Of a DNA stretch of 33,844 nt, positions 5,809 to 23,701 are shown piece after piece. The position numbers and the translations under genes are program-made. Below the pieces are notes generated by a model. That model saw only the letters and a program-made list of their open reading frames with translations, was not told the origin of the DNA and made no database searches. Numbering within the stretch: the stretch's first letter is position 1; each line of letters begins with the position of its first letter. The DNA comes from Bacteroidota bacterium. Its GTDB lineage: Bacteria; Bacteroidota; Bacteroidia; JABEUT01. Location: NCBI GenBank assembly GCA_021823405.1, contig JAKAOA010000015.1, positions 1-33,844 of the forward strand, written 5' to 3'.

Positions 5809-7665
5809 TTATTTTGCAATTACCAGTTTTCGGATTACACTACCGTTGTCACTATTAAATCGTACAAAATAGATACCGGAAAGAAGCATACCGGTATTAA
5901 AAGTGAGAACATGGGTGCCTTGCAACATTCTGCCCTCATTAATATAAGAAACCTTCCGTCCAAGTGCATCAAACATTTCTACGTTCATATTTTGATCACT
6001 TGTCAGTTTGATAGAAGCATTTACAAGACCTTTCGTCGGATTCGGATAAAGATCCAGATAGCCAATACCACCATTTACTTCATGCAACCCCGCGAGCAAC
6101 GTTATGGGCATTGAAGCGCTCTGGTAGACAAATTTGCTGCTGTCGTTCTGGATAAATACTACGATGTGTTCTCCAGTGGAATCATAAGGGTTAGTTTTGG
6201 CATTGTCGCTCCATGCATGAATCTTAATCCACCTGAAGGTGATAGTATCTGATTGACCGTTGGTGAAACTTGCAAGGGTAATACCTCCAAAAGTTGGCAT
6301 CATTCCTTCGGCTACCTGAGGAAAATCGGTTACATACTGATAATAGTTGTCATTAATTATGCCTGTACCTATTGGCGGAGCAAATGCATACTTTGGGGGA
6401 TTAGAAGCTTGATCCGAATCATATTTTATTGTATCAACTGTTATAACGGACCGTGCCACCAATCCTGAAGGCATATTGTAATATGCCTGTATAACTGCTT
6501 TTGCACTATAAACTTTTGTGTTGGCATCGTAGGTTGCAGATGTGATTGAGATAGTGAAAGGCGAGCCGATACTCATGGCATCATGCAACATAATACTGTT
6601 CATACCTTTGGGATTGTAGGTCTTATTAAAAGTACTTCCATAATAGTTTTCGCCATCTATCCTACCTCCTCCCATGCGTAAGTAGGGTATACTATTGTAA
6701 AAGGTGGTTTCACGAGGTTTTGAAACAGAGTCGCGTGCAATAGTATCTATTGTACCCAAAAGGTAACGAACAGTTTGCGTGGCAGGATTATTTGATAAAA
6801 CTGAATCAATATTAGGATCTGCATACATACAGCTTCCACCAGCGAAAGTAAAGTCTTCATATAAGACACTTTTTACCTGAGGATTATAAGCGGGTAATAC
6901 ATTGGGTGAAAATTCATACCAAACATTATCAGTATTGAAGGGGCTCCAGGTAATACTTTGAAGATTTGGAGACCCGGGTACTGATAATGCCTGTGTATTG
7001 TCTATTTGTACACCCCAAGTCATATTCAATGGATGGTAAGGCATTGATGGGTTGCCTAGTATATCTCCACATTCATCTACCAGATAGATATTATTTGTTG
7101 TTTCTTCCAGAACGATGGCAAGCATGTTTTGGGAGTTGGTATCAGCAGGATTGCCGGCATACCACCACACTATCCAAAGCTGGCGGTTAGGAGCTGTTCC
7201 ATATACTTTTGTATAGATTTTCCCTCCTCCTGCAGCCCCTGTAAGTCCCCATACACATACTGTACTATCAGGAATTGAACCTGTTGGCAGAGCTACATTA
7301 TTCGGTCCTGCGGGTATATTTGCCAGTTTCGAAAAAGTTATATATCCCGACGTTGATATTTTGTAACTATTTACGGGACCTCCATTGAAATCAAAAGTAA
7401 AAGGCATGGTTTGCAGAGGCAAGTATTGGAGAACGTAATTCTTTGCCCAATTGTATGAATAGAGGATAGTTGCCCCGGCTGGCAGTCCGTACATTGAGCC
7501 ATCAGTGTCGTTGTTAATACCTCCCGGATTGCCCGGAGCGACACACTGAATTTCATGATACTGCGCCCTTATAAAGGAAAGATGAATGGTGAAAAGAATA
7601 AAACAGATGAAAATTTTCATTGTTTGTTTCATTTTGCGCACGGGTGTGAACTGTCTTTTTTTCAT
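5809..7665 (-). CDS. Secreted protein with T9SS type A sorting domain
   Basis: Signal peptide (ICFILFTIHLSFIRAQ); C-terminal LDLYPNPTKGLVNASIKL...ALGRKVSYI...GIYFVRFNSDNGSVIRKLVIAK. Confidence 0.85.
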   Translation of the reverse strand: MKKRQFTPVRKMKQTMKIFICFILFTIHLSFIRAQYHEIQCVAPGNPGGINNDTDGSMYGLPAGATILYSYNWAKNYVLQYLPLQTMPFTFDFNGGPVNSYKISTSGYITFSKLANIPAGPNNVALPTGSIPDSTVCVWGLTGAAGGGKIYTKVYGTAPNRQLWIVWWYAGNPADTNSQNMLAIVLEETTNNIYLVDECGDILGNPSMPYHPLNMTWGVQIDNTQALSVPGSPNLQSITWSPFNTDNVWYEFSPNVLPAYNPQVKSVLYEDFTFAGGSCMYADPNIDSVLSNNPATQTVRYLLGTIDTIARDSVSKPRETTFYNSIPYLRMGGGRIDGENYYGSTFNKTYNPKGMNSIMLHDAMSIGSPFTISITSATYDANTKVYSAKAVIQAYYNMPSGLVARSVITVDTIKYDSDQASNPPKYAFAPPIGTGIINDNYYQYVTDFPQVAEGMMPTFGGITLASFTNGQSDTITFRWIKIHAWSDNAKTNPYDSTGEHIVVFIQNDSSKFVYQSASMPITLLAGLHEVNGGIGYLDLYPNPTKGLVNASIKLTSDQNMNVEMFDALGRKVSYINEGRMLQGTHVLTFNTGMLLSGIYFVRFNSDNGSVIRKLVIAK

Positions 7666-7789
7666 GATAGTTTGAATTTAGGGTTAAGAATTTACCGTCA
7701 TTTTATTATTTGCTTTTTGGTTAAGCCATTCCTTAATACATATACATTTGATTATTAATGATTTATGATAACTTTTCTTTCGCACAATG

Positions 7790-8650
7790 CTATTTGATTA
7801 TAATGGTTCCCCCGCACAAAAGATTTTCATCTTCTGATAAAATCTTATATGTGTAAGTTCCGTTAATTAAATCGTTTAAATCAACCGTATTGAACTCTGA
7901 TAACAGCTTGCTTTTGTAAACAATCCTACCAAAAACATCTTGAATTTCAATGATATATGTGCTTCCAATATGATATTCGCTAATGACAATTGGAAATGAC
8001 GCATTATCTTGGTTTAGATGAACATTATTGTAAAACGTTTCATTTCCAACCAATACGGATGAATTCTCTATAGGGGCATTATCCGGCAAGTTAAAGTTTC
8101 GTATAAGTTTATACCCTGTACCGTCGGTATTTATTGAAAATAGCATCTTCAGTTCATCATTTCTTCCATCAGAAACCATCCCCAGCAGGCTATTTCCGTG
8201 AATGGTTAAATTCCCATAGGGGTTTTCAATGGTGGTTACAGCAAATCGGTGCAAAACATTAAAGGAATACCCATTTGTATCTATTGAATAAATGACCTCA
8301 TAAGAGCTTTCTCCACTATATAGTGCCATTCCATAAAGCTTTGCCCCTTGTAGCAAAACGGAACCGGACAAATAAGCAGCATCAGTGTCATGCAACAGAT
8401 GCAAAACTTTATAATCTGTTCCATCATCATGCATTGTAAAAAGAACCCCATCTCCTGAATGTGACTTATTGCTTTGCTTTAAAGCATACAAATTTTCTCC
8501 CGAAATTACCGCACTGCCCAAAGATTGGACCCTGTTTATATTGACGGTTTTGTCCGAATTATATATTTGTGCACTCAAAATAGAAGTAGAAAAAAATAAT
8601 ATTTCAAAGGCGGTGATATAAGCGAATTCTTTCCCCCTGCGTAAAAACAT
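7790..8650 (-). CDS. Secreted GloVer-repeat-like protein with short T9SS-like C-terminal domain
   Basis: Repeats of LFTMHDDGTDYKVLHLL / IYSIDTNGYSFNVLHRF / LFSINTDGTGYKLIRNF; C-terminal IEIQDVFGRIVYKSKLLSEFNTVDLNDLINGTYTYKI. Confidence 0.7.
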   Translation of the reverse strand: MFLRRGKEFAYITAFEILFFSTSILSAQIYNSDKTVNINRVQSLGSAVISGENLYALKQSNKSHSGDGVLFTMHDDGTDYKVLHLLHDTDAAYLSGSVLLQGAKLYGMALYSGESSYEVIYSIDTNGYSFNVLHRFAVTTIENPYGNLTIHGNSLLGMVSDGRNDELKMLFSINTDGTGYKLIRNFNLPDNAPIENSSVLVGNETFYNNVHLNQDNASFPIVISEYHIGSTYIIEIQDVFGRIVYKSKLLSEFNTVDLNDLINGTYTYKILSEDENLLCGGTIIIK

Positions 8651-8692: not shown

Positions 8693-8848
8693 GAACCACT
8701 GTAGTTCCCTGTCAATAGAACAAAAGGACTATTTTTCATCGAGACCCCAATGCCTAAAAAGCGCATCTATCTTATTGATTTTTAGATTATTGATGTTATT
8801 TCGAGTAATTTTCTAATTTTGTGGTCATAATCCGGTGAACATCATTTT

Positions 8849-9658
8849 ATGAACGAACATAAGATTCCCTTCAGGGGTAAATCGCTTTCTTCCAGGTCAG
8901 CAGGTGATGAAAAAATGGCTGCCATAATATTTATTCACGGTGGTTCCATGTCATCCAAGATCTGGCAGAAGCAATTTAATTCGGAACTATCCCGTAACTA
9001 CCACCTTATTTCGTATGATTTGCCCGGGCATGGCGAAAGCGACAATATCAGTAATTACAAACTGTCAGAATTGGCCGCATCTCTTGCCGCGGTCGTAAGA
9101 TACTTTTCACCAACCCAATTTGTGGCAGTCGGCAACAGCCTTGGCGGGAATGTGATTCTTCAAATCGCTGATGCGTTAACCAATTGCAGGGGCATAGTCT
9201 TACTGGACACACCGCCCGTTGGTAAGCCGCCGGAAATGGAAAAGGTTTTCCTGCCCAATGAGGCCATAGGAATGTTTTTTGCCAGGGATTACGAAAAAGC
9301 CAAGTTACCCGCTATTATGGAGTTACTATTTCACCGGGCCGACCATGCACCCGGCTTTGTGATAAGCGATTTCGAAAGAACCGATGGCTTGTCGCGGCAG
9401 GCTTTAGCCGAAACCGTTGAGGGAATGGATTATCAGGATGAGATTGCTGTGCTGAACGAGATGGAAATACAAGTTGCAATTATGCTTGGAATACGTGAGA
9501 AAATGCAAAACGTTGATTATTTTAAATCACTGAAATTCCCTTGTTTGTGGAAGGACAGGGTACACCTGATTGAGGATGCTGCCCACTGCGCCCAATGGGA
9601 AAATCCGGCGGCGTTCAATAACTTACTTCTGGAGTTCTGCCGGGAAAGGTTAAATTAA
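8849..9658 (+). CDS. Alpha/beta hydrolase (paralogue A)
   Basis: IFIHGGSMSSKIW oxyanion region, nucleophile elbow GNSLGG (GxSxG), catalytic His region AAHCAQWENP. Confidence 0.9.
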   Translation: MNEHKIPFRGKSLSSRSAGDEKMAAIIFIHGGSMSSKIWQKQFNSELSRNYHLISYDLPGHGESDNISNYKLSELAASLAAVVRYFSPTQFVAVGNSLGGNVILQIADALTNCRGIVLLDTPPVGKPPEMEKVFLPNEAIGMFFARDYEKAKLPAIMELLFHRADHAPGFVISDFERTDGLSRQALAETVEGMDYQDEIAVLNEMEIQVAIMLGIREKMQNVDYFKSLKFPCLWKDRVHLIEDAAHCAQWENPAAFNNLLLEFCRERLN

Positions 9659-10432
9659 TCCGCTGCTTATAACATACCTGCTCAATTCAGCTGTATTTCT
9701 GCAACGGGTCTTTTCTAACAGGTTGCGCCGGTGCGCCCTGACTGTGTAGGGGCTTAGTTTCAACCTTTCAGCAATTTGGTTGCTGTTATGACCCTGCAGA
9801 ATAAGCTTCGCTATTTCAATTTGCCTCGGCGAAATATTCATGTTCTTGTTCAGGGTTTTTCCCGGCAGGAATGTTACTGTTGACCCTTGGTTACCATGCT
9901 TTGAGATGGAAAAGGTGATATTATTGTCCAGTTTATGTGCAGTTATATCCGTACAAATTCCCAGTACGAGCAGCGGATTATTTTGCGGGTCTCTGTTCAA
10001 GACTACAAACTGCTGCAATGCTTTCATGAAGATTCCATCTTTTTTCCTGTACCTTAAATTGAATGAAAATCTTGTGGTTTTCAGTTCTTCTTCCTGCATT
10101 GTTTTCGCGTAGTCGAGGAATTGCGCAAAAACATGATGTGCTATAACATTAAGGTCATCCGGATGATATCTCGAATGGCTGAATTTGAGTCCTCCGTTCC
10201 GCACATATTCTTCAATTGTATAACCGCTCAAGCTATGCCAGTTTTCACTCAGGGAAAGATACTCTCCGGTGCTAAAATCCAAAACAAATACCGTACAGGG
10301 CAAAAGACTTATGATGTTCTTTAATAAATTAAAACCCTTCAGGTAATAGCGGAAATCCTTTATCTTTTGAAGTTCGTTATTCTCTCTTAATTCTGTGAGA
10401 TATTTGTAATAGGTCGAAGAGGAGTTTGACAT
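9650..10432 (-). CDS. PAS domain-containing LuxR-type transcriptional regulator (paralogue A)
   Basis: PAS (VFVLDFSTGEYLSLSENWHSLSGYTIEEY...HPDD...GICTDITAHK) plus C-terminal LuxR HTH (ISPRQIEIAKLILQGHNSNQIAERLKLSPYTVRAHRRNLLEKT). Confidence 0.9.
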   Translation of the reverse strand: MSNSSSTYYKYLTELRENNELQKIKDFRYYLKGFNLLKNIISLLPCTVFVLDFSTGEYLSLSENWHSLSGYTIEEYVRNGGLKFSHSRYHPDDLNVIAHHVFAQFLDYAKTMQEEELKTTRFSFNLRYRKKDGIFMKALQQFVVLNRDPQNNPLLVLGICTDITAHKLDNNITFSISKHGNQGSTVTFLPGKTLNKNMNISPRQIEIAKLILQGHNSNQIAERLKLSPYTVRAHRRNLLEKTRCRNTAELSRYVISSGLI

Positions 10433-10495
10433 ATAAATGGCTTAAAGGAAAGTATTTGTAGAAAAGGGTAATGAAATATCGCGGTGCGGCCTTGT

Positions 10496-11269
10496 CTAAA
10501 TCAATCCATTATTGGCAGCGTAATTGCATAACTCCGCAACATTCCTGCACTTCGTTTTATCCAGCAGGTTACGCCTGTGTGCCCTAACTGTGTATTGAGA
10601 TATTATTAGCTTTTCGGCAATTTGCCTGCTGTTCAATCCATCCATAATACTTTTTAGCACATCATACTCGCGCCTTGTTATGTTGAGCCGCTTACTGACC
10701 GTGCTTTCGGAAAAGGTAGCCAGTTTCAGTCCATTTTTGTCGTTGTAGTTTGAAACTGAAAACACTACCTTGCTATCTGTTTTATACGCGGTAATATCTG
10801 TACATAAGCCAAGTGTAATCAATGGATTACGCTCTTTGTCCCATGCAATAATGTAATATTGTTGCAATAATTGGGCATAGCTTCCGTCCTTCCTTTTGGT
10901 CCTGTAATTCATCGAGAATTTCGTATTTCTTAATTCTTTTTCCGTCAAACCTCTGGAGTATTCCATGAACCGCCTGAAAACCTTGCTTGAAATAGCTGCC
11001 ATATCATCCGGGTGTATTCTTTCCAGCAGCAAACCCTGCCCCATTGTTATGAATTCGTCCCTGGTAAATCCGAGGACAATTTGCACGTTCTCGCTAAGGA
11101 AAAGATATTTCTGCGTTCGGTAATCGAGAATATAAACGATTCCCGGAAGGAGGTCAATGGTTTTTTTGAGTAATGCAAACTGGAGCAGGTAGGAATTTAC
11201 GTTCCCGTACTTGACCAATTCAGTTTTCCCCTTAATCCATCTAAGATAATCAAAGTAAAATTGCGGCAT
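10496..11269 (-). CDS. PAS domain-containing LuxR-type transcriptional regulator (paralogue B)
   Basis: PAS (VYILDYRTQKYLFLSENVQIVLGFTRDEF...HPDD...GLCTDITAYK) plus LuxR HTH (ITRREYDVLKSIMDGLNSRQIAEKLIISQYTVRAHRRNLLDKTKC). Confidence 0.9.
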   Translation of the reverse strand: MPQFYFDYLRWIKGKTELVKYGNVNSYLLQFALLKKTIDLLPGIVYILDYRTQKYLFLSENVQIVLGFTRDEFITMGQGLLLERIHPDDMAAISSKVFRRFMEYSRGLTEKELRNTKFSMNYRTKRKDGSYAQLLQQYYIIAWDKERNPLITLGLCTDITAYKTDSKVVFSVSNYNDKNGLKLATFSESTVSKRLNITRREYDVLKSIMDGLNSRQIAEKLIISQYTVRAHRRNLLDKTKCRNVAELCNYAANNGLI

Positions 11270-11289
11270 ATATTTAATGGGATAGGCAT

Positions 11290-12102
11290 TCAGGGTTTTA
11301 AGGTATCGGAGCAGAATTCGTGAAGCAAGCCGTTAAATGCCTCTGCATTTTCCCATTGAGGACAATGAGCCGCATTCTCTATCAAAATGGTTTTACCACC
11401 CCACAAATTTGCTACATCGAGGGTATCGAAATAGGCGTTATTAATTAGTTTTTCCTCCTTGCCCGAGACGATAGCTACCGGGTAAGGGTGCGCTTTCAGT
11501 ATTTCGTTTTCATCGTTATAATCCGATGTGTTCACACTTTCCATAACCATCTGCCTGTTTAAGCCGTCGGCCCTTACATAATCCGGTATAACAAAATCGG
11601 GCGTATCTTTAAGATTGTGAAAAACAATACCCGGAATTTTGTCGAGGTTCGCACGGTCAATTTCCCTCGCAAATAACATTCCGATGTATGGATTAGGAAT
11701 CAAAGCATTCTCCAATGCGGGCGGTTTGCCAAGCACAGGTGAATCAACCAGCATGATGCCTTTGCAACCGCTTGCAACCGTTGATGCCTGCAGGGCGAGA
11801 TTTCCTCCAAGGCTGTTTCCCACCATAACGAATCTTTTAGGAGAAAAATGTTTCAACACTTTGGTAAGGGATTCTGCCAAAACGGGCAATCCATAGGATT
11901 CCAGGTTATCACTATCTCCATGCCCGGGCAGGTCGAAGGCTATTAATCGGTACCTCTCCAATGCGGCGCCTTCAAACTGTTTCCGCCATATTTTGGATGA
12001 CATGGAATTGCCATGGATAAATATAATGCCATCATTTCCTTCCTTGCCGGCAGAAGTTGCGGCTAAATATTTTCCCCTGAATGGCACTTTGAATTTCTTC
12101 AT
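11290..12102 (-). CDS. Alpha/beta hydrolase (paralogue B)
   Basis: IFIHGNSMSSKIW, GNSLGGN elbow, AAHCPQWENAEAFN; aligns along its length with 8849-9658. Confidence 0.9.
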   Translation of the reverse strand: MKKFKVPFRGKYLAATSAGKEGNDGIIFIHGNSMSSKIWRKQFEGAALERYRLIAFDLPGHGDSDNLESYGLPVLAESLTKVLKHFSPKRFVMVGNSLGGNLALQASTVASGCKGIMLVDSPVLGKPPALENALIPNPYIGMLFAREIDRANLDKIPGIVFHNLKDTPDFVIPDYVRADGLNRQMVMESVNTSDYNDENEILKAHPYPVAIVSGKEEKLINNAYFDTLDVANLWGGKTILIENAAHCPQWENAEAFNGLLHEFCSDTLKP

Positions 12103-12178
12103 GTTGTTTGTTGTAATGTATGCTTACGACTAATAAATTATTCCAAAAATAAGCAAAAAACTGATTCAAGCCCCCCGT

Positions 12179-19686: not shown

Positions 19687-22041
19687 ATGAGAACACGGAC
19701 TACCGGTAGTGCCTCAATACTGATTCTATTGGTTATTATTATTCTTTTTATTCAACCATGGGGTGGCGTAATCATGGCGCAGAAACCTAACAAATCGGAT
19801 TCGTTATTAATAGCGTTAAATGGGACTCATCAGGATAGTACAAGGTATAAAATTCTTTTCAAATTAGGGTTATTCTTTATGAATCGGTTGCCTGATTCTG
19901 CCAGTGTATTTTTTCGGGACGCGGTGCAGGTTGCCGATAAAATGAATGACAAAACGAAGAAAGGAGTCGCTTTAAGGGAGATCGGATGGGATTGCTTAAT
20001 TTTGGGCAGAACTGATACAGCGTTAAAATTCTTCTTTAACGCCTCGAATCTTGCAGACACTACCCAAGGGTATAAAGCGAAGGAATTATTAGCTGGAGCG
20101 CTATCCAATATCGGCACTGCATTAAGCTCTAAAAGCAATTACCCGGAAGCGTTGGATTATTATCAGAGATCTTTAAATGTATTTAACGCAATACACCATA
20201 AGTCGGGGGCAGCGACTGACCTTGCCAATATCGGAATACTGTTTCGTAAAGAGGCGAATTACCCTCAAGCATTAGAGTATTATTTCAAAGCCCTGAAAAT
20301 AGCAGAGGAATTAGGAAATCCGCTTGATCAGGCACATTATCTTGGAAGTATCGGTAACGTTTATGCACTCGAGAATAACTATTCCAAGGCGCTTGATTAT
20401 TTCCTTAAATCGTTGACAATTCTACAAGAAAAAGGCGATAAGTACGGTGAGTCCTCCATCTTTGGCAACATAGGTAATATTTATACCGCCGAAAAGAATT
20501 ATGAACGCGCCATGGAATATTATGAAGATGCCATTAAGTTATCGGATGATCTGGGAGACAGGGCTACTAAGGTTATTAACCTTGGTAATATTGGCGATGT
20601 ATACATGAGTGAGAACAAATATCCACAGGCGCTCGAGTATTATTTTAATGCGCTGAAATTAGCGAAACAGGTCGGAGATAAGGATCAGGAGACAACAAAT
20701 CTGGGGAACATCGGATATGTTTACCTGAAAACAAAAAAAATCGAATTGGCTCATCAAGTTTTAATCAAAGCCCTGTTTTTGAGTGATAGCATAAAAACTT
20801 TGGATGATACAAGACAGATTGAGTTGAATTTAAGTGGTGTAGACAGCGCGCTTTCGCAAACCGCAGGAAAAAAAGGAAATTGGAAAATCGCCAAGCTTTA
20901 TTCAGATAGCGCATTGTCTCATTATAAAAGTTATGTTGCAGACCGCGATAGCATTATCAATACCAAAAACATAAGGAAACAAGCCGATTTGGAGGCCGAT
21001 TTCGACTATCAGCAGAAGGAGTCCCTTCGTAAGACTTCAGAAGAAAGAAGGACGCTTCAATACCAAGAAGCCCGAAAGCGCCAGCGCATAATTACCTATA
21101 CCATTGCGGCAGCGTTGCTCTTGGCTATGCTCTTTTCATTATTTGTAGTGCAGCGATTACGCATAACACGCAGACAAAAAGCCATAATAGAAGAACAAAA
21201 ACAGACCGTTGACCAACGCAATAAAGATATATCGGACAGTATTAAATACGCCAAACGCCTTCAAGATGCCATTCTGCCGCCGATAGCGAAGATAAAAAAA
21301 TATTTCCCGGATTCCTTTGTACTTTATAAACCGAAAGACATTGTTGCCGGAGATTTTTATTGGATTGAACGTATTGCCCTATCCCCTCTCGTTAATCAGG
21401 GAGAGACGGAGGGGAGCGAGGTTATACTGATAGCTGCCTGCGACTGCACTGGTCACGGTGTACCGGGCGCTTTGGTCAGTGTTGTGTGCTCTAACGCCTT
21501 AAACAGAGCAGTGAAAGAATTTAATATTCATGAACCGGCCAAAATACTTGATAAGACGAGGGAACTCGTGTTGGATACTTTTTCTGCTGGCGACAAAATA
21601 AATGACGGAATGGATATTTCTCTGACAGCCATATACCGTAATACCGGTAGTTACAGGGATACTAAAATATTTTGGAGCGGAGCAAATAATCCGTTATGCT
21701 ATAAACCAGATGAAAAGAATGAAATGCTGGAAATAATGCCCGATAAACAACCGATAGGATTTTTCCCTGAAATGAGGCCATTTAATAACCACGTTATCAC
21801 TGTTCCGTCATTAGACGGTCAATTTTCAGGCAGTTTATATTTATTCACCGACGGCTATGCAGACCAGTTTGGAGGTCCAAAAGGGAAAAAATATAAATAT
21901 ACGCCATTTAAAGAGAAACTTTTGTCTATCAGCGATAAACCGATGAAGGAACAAAAAGTAATTTTGGAACAAGAATTTGAAATGTGCAAAGGCGAACAGG
22001 AACAAACGGATGATGTATGTGTGATTGGAATAAGGATTTAA
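19687..22041 (+). CDS. TPR repeat protein with transmembrane segment and C-terminal SpoIIE/PP2C-type phosphatase domain
   Basis: Repeated GNIGNVY..xNYxxALxYY TPRs at ~40 aa; TM segment IITYTIAAALLLAMLFSLFVV; SpoIIE core FVLYKPKDIVAGDFYWIE, DCTGHGVPGALVSVV, LFTDGYADQFGG. Confidence 0.9.
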   Translation: MRTRTTGSASILILLVIIILFIQPWGGVIMAQKPNKSDSLLIALNGTHQDSTRYKILFKLGLFFMNRLPDSASVFFRDAVQVADKMNDKTKKGVALREIGWDCLILGRTDTALKFFFNASNLADTTQGYKAKELLAGALSNIGTALSSKSNYPEALDYYQRSLNVFNAIHHKSGAATDLANIGILFRKEANYPQALEYYFKALKIAEELGNPLDQAHYLGSIGNVYALENNYSKALDYFLKSLTILQEKGDKYGESSIFGNIGNIYTAEKNYERAMEYYEDAIKLSDDLGDRATKVINLGNIGDVYMSENKYPQALEYYFNALKLAKQVGDKDQETTNLGNIGYVYLKTKKIELAHQVLIKALFLSDSIKTLDDTRQIELNLSGVDSALSQTAGKKGNWKIAKLYSDSALSHYKSYVADRDSIINTKNIRKQADLEADFDYQQKESLRKTSEERRTLQYQEARKRQRIITYTIAAALLLAMLFSLFVVQRLRITRRQKAIIEEQKQTVDQRNKDISDSIKYAKRLQDAILPPIAKIKKYFPDSFVLYKPKDIVAGDFYWIERIALSPLVNQGETEGSEVILIAACDCTGHGVPGALVSVVCSNALNRAVKEFNIHEPAKILDKTRELVLDTFSAGDKINDGMDISLTAIYRNTGSYRDTKIFWSGANNPLCYKPDEKNEMLEIMPDKQPIGFFPEMRPFNNHVITVPSLDGQFSGSLYLFTDGYADQFGGPKGKKYKYTPFKEKLLSISDKPMKEQKVILEQEFEMCKGEQEQTDDVCVIGIRI
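21383..21414. repeat. REP-like hairpin-derived sequence inside a coding region
   Basis: CCCCTCTCGTTAATCAGGGAGAGACGGAGGGG; resembles the reverse complement of the intergenic hairpin at 5431-5470. Confidence 0.5.
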
Positions 22042-22057
22042 CTTTGCGGGGCAAAGG

Positions 22058-23701
22058 GTGGAAATAACATGCAAAGAACAAATTTACACACTAAGAAAAA
22101 TTTCTGGTGAAATGCCTCTCATGAAATTAAGATACAATGACGCCGGTTATTTTGGGGGGCAGCAGCAATGGCTGGTGATTAGAAACCATATTTTGGCTTT
22201 CACTTTTGCCATTTGCTTTCTTCCGGGTGTTGCACAAAATTTAAAGAACGGTTATAATAAATTCTATTATCCCAACGGTAAGGTTTCAAGCGAAGGAACC
22301 GTTCGCGACGGGAAACCGGATGGCTATTGGAAAAACTATTATGAAGACGGCAGATTGAAAGCGGAGGGCAACAGAAAGAACTTTCAATTGGATAGTATTT
22401 GGAAATTTTATACTGAACAAGGACTGATGTACTTAAGTTTTTACTATAAGGACGGAAAAAAAACAGGACCTAAAACAACATATCTTCCGGTTCCAAAAGA
22501 TAGCAGCAAGGGTATCTTGTCTTCCATCGAAAACTATAGAAATGATACACTTGAAGGCGAAGCCCGTTATTACCGGGACGGAAAATTATTTCAAACGGTT
22601 AGCTATAAGAACGGACTGCCCGAAGGTCTTTCCTTTCAATATTCTCCCGATTCAACCATTAACTGTATAATTTTATACAAGGGCGGTTTTATTAAACGGC
22701 TTAATAAAATAAATCAATATAACCCGCAAGGTCACAAAGAGGGATTGTGGCAGGGCTTCTATCCTAACGGTTCAGTAAAATGGGAATGTACCTATATTGA
22801 CGGCAAAATAGAGGGCTATTACAAAACCTATGGTCCGGATGGCAGCGTGGTTACTATAAAGAAATATATAAATAATGTAGTTCAGAATAATGCGCCGGAA
22901 CTCGCTAAACTGGAGGTGAAGACGGAATATTTTGATAACGGACATATACAGGAAACAGGACCCTATAAGGACGGAAAACCTTTCGGAGCACATCGTATTT
23001 TTGACTCTACCGGCAAAGAAATTAAAGCTCAAATATACGATAGCGGACGGGTAGTCGCCGAAGGAATATTAGACGAAAGCGATATGCAGGAGGGATATTG
23101 GAAGGATTACCACTCAAACGGGACTATATTGAGCGAAGGCAACTACGTACATGGTGTTAAAGTAGGGGAATGGAAGTTCTATTACTCCAACAGCAATAAA
23201 TTTGAAATCGGGAAATACGATGGCAAAGGCAGACCAACTGGCAAATGGCTTTGGTATTACAATGATGGCAAGTTATTGAGACAAAGTAGTTTTCATAATG
23301 GATTGCAGGATGGTGATTTTGTGGAATACAGCGATTCGGGCAGCGTTATTACGAAGGGCGAATATATGGATGGGTTAAAGGAGGGCGACTGGATTTATAT
23401 AATGGGCAATTTTAAAAGTATAGGAAAATATTTAGATGACATGAAGGACAGTATCTGGAAGGAATATTACAGAAATACGGGTAAAGTGCGTTTTATTGGC
23501 GATTATAACCAAGGCAGACCCGATGGAAAACACATTTGGTACTATCCAAGCGGACGCAAGGAACTCGAAGGAGAATATTCAATGGGACTAAGAGAAGATA
23601 AATGGAAGTATTACGATAAAGATGACGGCACAATTTGGTTAACCATAACCTATAGAGATGATGAAGAGGTTAGATATGACAGAACCAAAGTGGAACCTTA
23701 A
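22058..23701 (+). CDS. YwqK/MORN-variant repeat protein (start uncertain)
   Basis: Repeats FYYPNGKVSSEGTVRDGKPDGYWKNYYEDGRLKAEG...; signal-like segment ILAFTFAICFLPGVAQ. Confidence 0.75.
   Translation: MEITCKEQIYTLRKISGEMPLMKLRYNDAGYFGGQQQWLVIRNHILAFTFAICFLPGVAQNLKNGYNKFYYPNGKVSSEGTVRDGKPDGYWKNYYEDGRLKAEGNRKNFQLDSIWKFYTEQGLMYLSFYYKDGKKTGPKTTYLPVPKDSSKGILSSIENYRNDTLEGEARYYRDGKLFQTVSYKNGLPEGLSFQYSPDSTINCIILYKGGFIKRLNKINQYNPQGHKEGLWQGFYPNGSVKWECTYIDGKIEGYYKTYGPDGSVVTIKKYINNVVQNNAPELAKLEVKTEYFDNGHIQETGPYKDGKPFGAHRIFDSTGKEIKAQIYDSGRVVAEGILDESDMQEGYWKDYHSNGTILSEGNYVHGVKVGEWKFYYSNSNKFEIGKYDGKGRPTGKWLWYYNDGKLLRQSSFHNGLQDGDFVEYSDSGSVITKGEYMDGLKEGDWIYIMGNFKSIGKYLDDMKDSIWKEYYRNTGKVRFIGDYNQGRPDGKHIWYYPSGRKELEGEYSMGLREDKWKYYDKDDGTIWLTITYRDDEEVRYDRTKVEP

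Follow-up and report, generated by a model that had tools for sequence, protein, structure and literature searches.

The alpha/beta hydrolase RsbQ and the PAS domain of RsbP constitute a bipartite sensing module with three outputs (Nadezhdin, Brody and Price 2011, PMC3183031). The published survey of such hydrolase and PAS combinations recorded phosphatase, kinase and cyclase outputs only, its text mentions neither LuxR nor Bacteroidetes, and the cue is still unknown (PMC3183031). A different hydrolase, AidH of Ochrobactrum sp. T63 (Protein Data Bank, PDB, entries 4g5x, 4g8b-d, 4g9e and 4g9g), is a metal-independent N-acyl homoserine lactone (AHL) lactonase with the relatives JydB and AiiO. 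Tyr160 of AidH has been reported to be important for catalysis (PMC9728292), and the primary substrate of the AidH-like AiiO is unclear (PMC6739375). Here we describe a locus in a 33,844-nucleotide (nt) stretch of a Bacteroidota bacterium genome (contig JAKAOA010000015.1, assembly GCA_021823405.1; the whole stretch is called the window), in which two alpha/beta hydrolase genes, hydA and hydB, flank two genes for PAS-LuxR regulators, luxA and luxB. The pairing of such a hydrolase with a LuxR-type regulator proved to be a genuine, conserved module across the phylum and not a local accident; we found no published account of a hydrolase and PAS-LuxR pair in Bacteroidota in the open-access literature.

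The four genes lie in the order hydA> <luxA <luxB <hydB:

8849..9658, plus strand: hydA, alpha/beta hydrolase of 269 amino acids (aa), AidH branch, Pfam Abhydrolase_1/6.
9650..10432, minus strand: luxA, PAS-LuxR regulator of 260 aa, PAS_3 (24.9 bits, below the cut-off) and GerE helix-turn-helix (HTH).
10496..11269, minus strand: luxB, PAS-LuxR regulator of 257 aa, PAS_3 and GerE (Pfam).
11290..12102, minus strand: hydB, alpha/beta hydrolase of 270 aa, AidH branch, Pfam Abhydrolase_1/6.

This arrangement had been given in a preliminary description of the DNA, and its coordinates, strands, gaps and overlap were all verified; every motif named there (GNSLGG and AAHCxQWEN in the hydrolases, HPDD, DITAxK and YTVRAHRRNLL in the regulators) was found to be present.

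Conservation of the pairing was examined in several draws of genomes, which overlap, so that the distinct genomes number a little over 1,100, fewer than the summed searches, all from the same phylum and supplemented by a plasmid collection. Outside the window there were 17 strong relatives of the hydrolase, from 13 genera besides that of the host, and all 17 had a LuxR-type regulator as immediate neighbour, a repetition that goes beyond chance; we estimate chance adjacency at ~1-2% per genome, even if a genome of 3,500 genes is assumed to hold ~30 regulators of this type. The class-level draw (395 genomes) held a strong relative in eight other genomes, each directly adjoined by a PAS-LuxR gene (8/8), and a further pair of class-level draws, taken around other members of the family, contributed five additional strong relatives, again all paired (5/5). 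From the draw across the phylum (396 genomes) came three strong relatives, all adjoining a LuxR-type regulator (3/3), separated by a clear score gap from five weak, generic hydrolases (E about 1e-30 to 1e-33), none of which had a LuxR-type neighbour (0/5). Similarly, no LuxR-type neighbour stood beside seven AidH-like genes sampled from other phyla (0/7). On a plasmid of Hymenobacter tibetensis, the hydrolase gene is followed by a LuxR gene ~30 nt downstream.

The preliminary description had named a neighbourhood confined to this DNA as an outcome that would speak against it, and the co-occurrence search shows the opposite. Across 19 pairs, including those of the window, the genes are in tandem nine times, convergent nine times and divergent once, and the persistence of adjacency through such changes of order argues for functional coupling. 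All-against-all comparison of the flanks revealed no recurrent third gene near the pairs, and thus the pair looks self-contained. The partner is a PAS-LuxR protein in 15/17 cases by PAS_3 or profile match, with some PAS_3 scores marginally under the Pfam cut-off. The distribution is nevertheless patchy, as the host's genus, family and order consist of the same 11 genomes and the locus occurs in one of them, the host.

The sequence, the fold and the tree all place the hydrolase with the AHL lactonase AidH. AidH is the best PDB relative both in single-sequence searches (4e-25, with the next unrelated entry at 8e-11) and by profile (E 2e-55, with the next PDB relative at 2e-25), and the AlphaFold model of hydB (predicted local distance difference test, pLDDT, 94.9) matches its fold with a template modelling (TM) score of 0.93 (root-mean-square deviation 1.8 Å), compared with 0.82 for the next structure. 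In a maximum-likelihood tree the paired hydrolases and AidH-like proteins of Pseudomonadota and Actinomycetota form one 25-row clade (100/100), apart from generic hydrolases; this clade contains the AidH group from outside Bacteroidota as a subclade (88/86). The columns of AidH S102, E219 and H248 hold Ser, Asp/Glu and His in 17/17 aligned paired hydrolases (15 relatives together with hydA and hydB; in locus L055 the acid motif, QAENELV, sits one residue off). The equivalents in hydB are S97, E217 and H246, the triad of hydA is complete too, and the titles of the AidH entries name E219G and S102G mutants. The oxyanion-region motif reads HGGS in hydA and HGNS in hydB. The hydrolases had at first been likened to RsbQ, D14 and KAI2, an assignment we abandon: the nearest characterised relative is AidH, and none of those three is among the top 60 sequence matches or the top 50 fold matches.

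The regulator combines a sensory and a DNA-binding part, the AlphaFold model of luxB (pLDDT 85.9) consisting of a PAS domain followed by a GerE helix-turn-helix. Its fold matches in Foldseek are led by 3clo, an uncharacterised Bacteroides LuxR protein, followed by VqmA and then the light sensor EL222, which leaves VqmA, in an autoinducer-bound structure, as the best characterised match; the way the domains are arranged keeps the whole-chain TM scores low (0.30-0.49). The linker of the model is a low-confidence strand or loop with no coiled coil. Both PAS regions carry CTDITA, the DIT motif, with at least 90% conservation of the Asp column, and no LOV cysteine motif is visible in the sequence of luxA or luxB. 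The PAS_3 match of luxA (24.9 bits) lies marginally under the Pfam cut-off of 25.6. Pairwise tree distances of the hydrolases are correlated with those of the regulators (Mantel r 0.69, p 1e-4; for the thinned set r 0.55, p 9e-4), a correlation to which shared species history contributes and which supports the preliminary description.

Given the 17/17 pairing and the correlated trees, the small-molecule sensing role first proposed for the hydrolase and its PAS-LuxR partner remains the most economical reading. We put the chances at about even that the pair is a two-gene sensor: the hydrolase would produce or remove a ligand, either an ester or a lactone, which the PAS domain of its partner would read. 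Starting from what is observed, namely the pairing, the intact triad, the AidH-like fold and the PAS plus GerE architecture, the mechanism would run as follows. A serine hydrolase of the AidH branch (Ser-Asp/Glu-His), probably intracellular, would open or cleave an ester- or lactone-type metabolite and by this catalysis set the level of the ligand. The PAS pocket of the partner, with its N-terminal PAS and C-terminal LuxR/GerE domain, would bind and read the substrate or the product, and this reading would alter transcription, as VqmA does with 3,5-dimethylpyrazin-2-ol (DPO). A bolder version, which we regard as speculative and rather improbable, is that the PAS-LuxR protein is a dedicated receptor for a lactone or ester signal other than an AHL, which the AHL-lactonase-like hydrolase produces or adjusts, the two being an undescribed phylum-wide module of Bacteroidota. 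If true, this would mean LuxI-free chemical communication or metabolite sensing native to the phylum, and would give a physiological setting to this portion of the AidH branch.

Several results weigh against the sensor. When placed among other PAS-LuxR proteins, the hydrolase-partnered regulators do not group as a single clade (8 changes, against a mean of 12.8 after shuffling), and strict one-to-one co-evolution of hydrolase and regulator was set aside for this reason; their scatter in the tree implies a coherent hydrolase subfamily that draws its partners from a wider pool. Two of the 17 partners (L057 and L090) are GerE proteins whose N-terminus has no recognisable PAS domain. The column of AidH Tyr160 holds I, L, V, A or M, with Tyr in 0/17 paired hydrolases, in a cap domain that aligns poorly; at most this hints that AHLs may not be the substrate. 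Furthermore, RsbQ also requires its triad (PMC3183031), and retention of the triad therefore cannot tell an enzyme from a receptor.

One rival is an RsbQ-like receptor, in which the hydrolase would dock on the PAS domain and relay ligand occupancy or turnover by contact, with DNA binding as the output. There is experimental support for a contact-dependent module of this kind in RsbQ and RsbP-PAS, whose genes lie side by side in 45 pairs that cover three kinds of output (PMC3183031), and the pairing described here is as tight, with trees that correlate. Nevertheless, the hydrolase sits on the AidH branch with RsbQ not its nearest relative, the PAS domain retains a DIT motif that RsbP-PAS does not have, and the luxB model is without a coiled-coil linker; we judge this account unlikely. 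An enzyme under local control, where the PAS-LuxR protein senses an outside lactone or ester and induces the hydrolase that degrades it (for detoxification, nutrition or quorum quenching), would make the hydrolase the output and not part of the sensor. Relatives of AidH do degrade AHLs (PMC9728292), and any AHL would be foreign, since LuxI was not found in 12/14 of the paired genomes searched. Yet some genomes ought then to carry the enzyme with no regulator beside it, which was seen in 0/17, expression of the related aiiO did not respond to AHLs (PMC6739375), and the upstream regions of hydA and hydB have no clear shared operator-like motif, the null being as high in 8/100 shuffles. The nine convergent pairs among the 19 do not discriminate for or against this account, to which we give a low probability.

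The source of any AHL was considered by searching 14 paired genomes for LuxI (PF00765), which gave no match in the host genome (G000) and 11 of the 13 others; self-made AHL is therefore unlikely in the host. The matches were one over the cut-off, in G741, and one sub-threshold, in G562. The former (locus L067, G741:C15:15058-15369) scores 31.5 bits in a genome estimated to be 9% contaminated, and could represent contamination or a distant acyltransferase. It is very improbable, in our view, that the genes form a coincidental or mobile cassette, travelling together by horizontal transfer while functionally uncoupled. The patchy occurrence, in one of the 11 genomes of the host's genus, and the copy on a Hymenobacter plasmid would suit such a history; the complete pairing in 13 genera, the reshuffled order with retained adjacency, the lack of a recurring neighbour gene and the low estimate for chance adjacency argue against it.

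The window holds the pair in duplicate. Identity between the hydrolases hydA and hydB is 51% over 268 aa (E 1e-99) and between luxA and luxB 44% over 255 aa (E 2e-77), confirming the two paralogue pairs as true paralogues. In the trees the closest relative of hydA is hydB and that of luxA is luxB (99-100% bootstrap), so the simplest history is that the pair was duplicated once, long ago and in this lineage only, and that hydA was inverted afterwards. No other genome examined had a single locus with two strong hydrolases of the family, and no other close copies of either family were found in the host genome; pattern searches of genome contigs gave 0 matches for the hydrolase and two distant, PAS-only matches for the regulator. 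Counted by hand from the alignment, luxA and luxB are ~58% identical in their HTH regions, compared with ~40% in the PAS regions and remainder. This fits the hypothesis that the two regulators might share similar DNA targets and possibly differ in their inputs.

As for expression, the gaps measure 20 nt (hydB-luxB) and 63 nt (luxB-luxA), and hydB, luxB and luxA probably form a single transcript with hydB at its head. The gene hydA converges on luxA, with 3' ends overlapping by 9 nt (9650-9658), and could be transcribed separately. Upstream sites of both hydrolase genes were read against TANNTTTG, which we take to be the Bacteroidota -7 box consensus:

8814..8821, plus strand: candidate -7 box TAATTTTG upstream of hydA, a match to the consensus TANNTTTG only.
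12144..12151, minus strand: candidate -7 box TATTTTTG upstream of hydB, a consensus match only.

A region beside hydA (5809-8650 of the window) encodes a secreted protein of 618 aa with type A sorting by the type IX secretion system (T9SS), together with a GloVer-repeat protein whose T9SS tail is weak. Such T9SS-secreted neighbours were considered as a shared regulon of the pairs. They occur in 2-4 of ~24 flanks, near expectation, and the idea was dropped because T9SS genes are so numerous genome-wide, with 90 in the host and more than 100 in most paired genomes. Sorting tails occur in 14/14 genomes checked, which together with the Hymenobacter copy points to Bacteroidota as their phylum. Elsewhere in the window are a protein combining tetratricopeptide repeats (TPR) with a SpoIIE (PP2C-type) phosphatase and, after it, one with MORN repeats (19687-23701), as well as a further MORN-repeat protein (225-1457).

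Some loci in other genomes vary the theme. Extra regulators accompany a single strong hydrolase at L026, L069, L079 and L083. Two to three LuxR-type regulators per hydrolase are present at L079:6696-9644 (G477), L026:1579-4677 (G328) and L069:3959-6393 (the Hymenobacter tibetensis plasmid). At L083:7110-11120 (G083) the pair adjoins a two-component system: next come genes for a LuxR protein of NarL type (8704-9330) and for a TPR histidine kinase (9327-11120). The hydrolase match at L090 (G1165:C32:58072-58830) spans one in-frame TAA, probably the terminal stop, and its 254-aa open reading frame is intact. PAS-LuxR genes also adjoin remoter alpha/beta hydrolases at L029:560-1507 and L041:2118-2936 (family profile E 1e-7 and 1e-10, respectively), the L041 regulator clustering with the Hymenobacter regulator (100/100). 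The pairing of hydrolase and PAS-LuxR protein may thus extend beyond the AidH branch.

A hydrolase and PAS-LuxR pair would point to LuxI-independent signalling chemistry in Bacteroidota. As its output is a transcription factor, the pair could be assayed with a reporter, and the questions of the RsbQ-PAS cue and the AiiO substrate would become testable.

Set beside known systems, the hydrolases share with AidH a Ser-Glu-His triad in the same alignment columns, the HGNS motif and a common, strongly supported clade. They differ in overall sequence (~23% identity in the structural alignment), in the nucleophile elbow (GHS or GNS in most paired members, GWS in AidH) and, unlike the AidH-like genes sampled from other phyla, in being paired with a LuxR-type regulator. 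The regulators resemble VqmA, the DPO receptor of Vibrio cholerae (6ide, 6ugl and 6kju), in having a PAS domain and then a LuxR helix-turn-helix, though luxB and VqmA reach whole-chain TM scores of 0.30-0.33 only; to our knowledge, VqmA does not act with a neighbouring hydrolase. In the plant-associated LuxR solos beside pip (OryR, XccR and relatives), a LuxR-type gene likewise adjoins that of an alpha/beta hydrolase and the signal is not made by LuxI. Those regulators carry an autoinducer-binding domain instead of PAS, and pip is a proline iminopeptidase.

The parallel with RsbQ-RsbP, drawn in the preliminary description, holds in that a hydrolase gene adjoins one whose product has PAS at its N-terminus and an output domain at its C-terminus, an association that recurs in distant bacteria, and it is apt as a picture of how the pair might operate. 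It does not hold in the tested features: the PAS domain has a DIT motif and RsbP-PAS has none; the hydrolase gene is invariably immediately upstream in RsbQ-RsbP, compared with a tandem order in just 9/19 pairs here; and a PPM phosphatase, histidine kinase or diguanylate cyclase, usually joined through a coiled coil, is replaced by a GerE/LuxR HTH without such a linker. We therefore do not class the pair as a member of the RsbQ-RsbP module, and suggest by analogy that it may work like one. Its departure from the RsbQ-RsbP plan consists of an AidH-branch hydrolase, a DIT-type PAS domain and a DNA-binding output.

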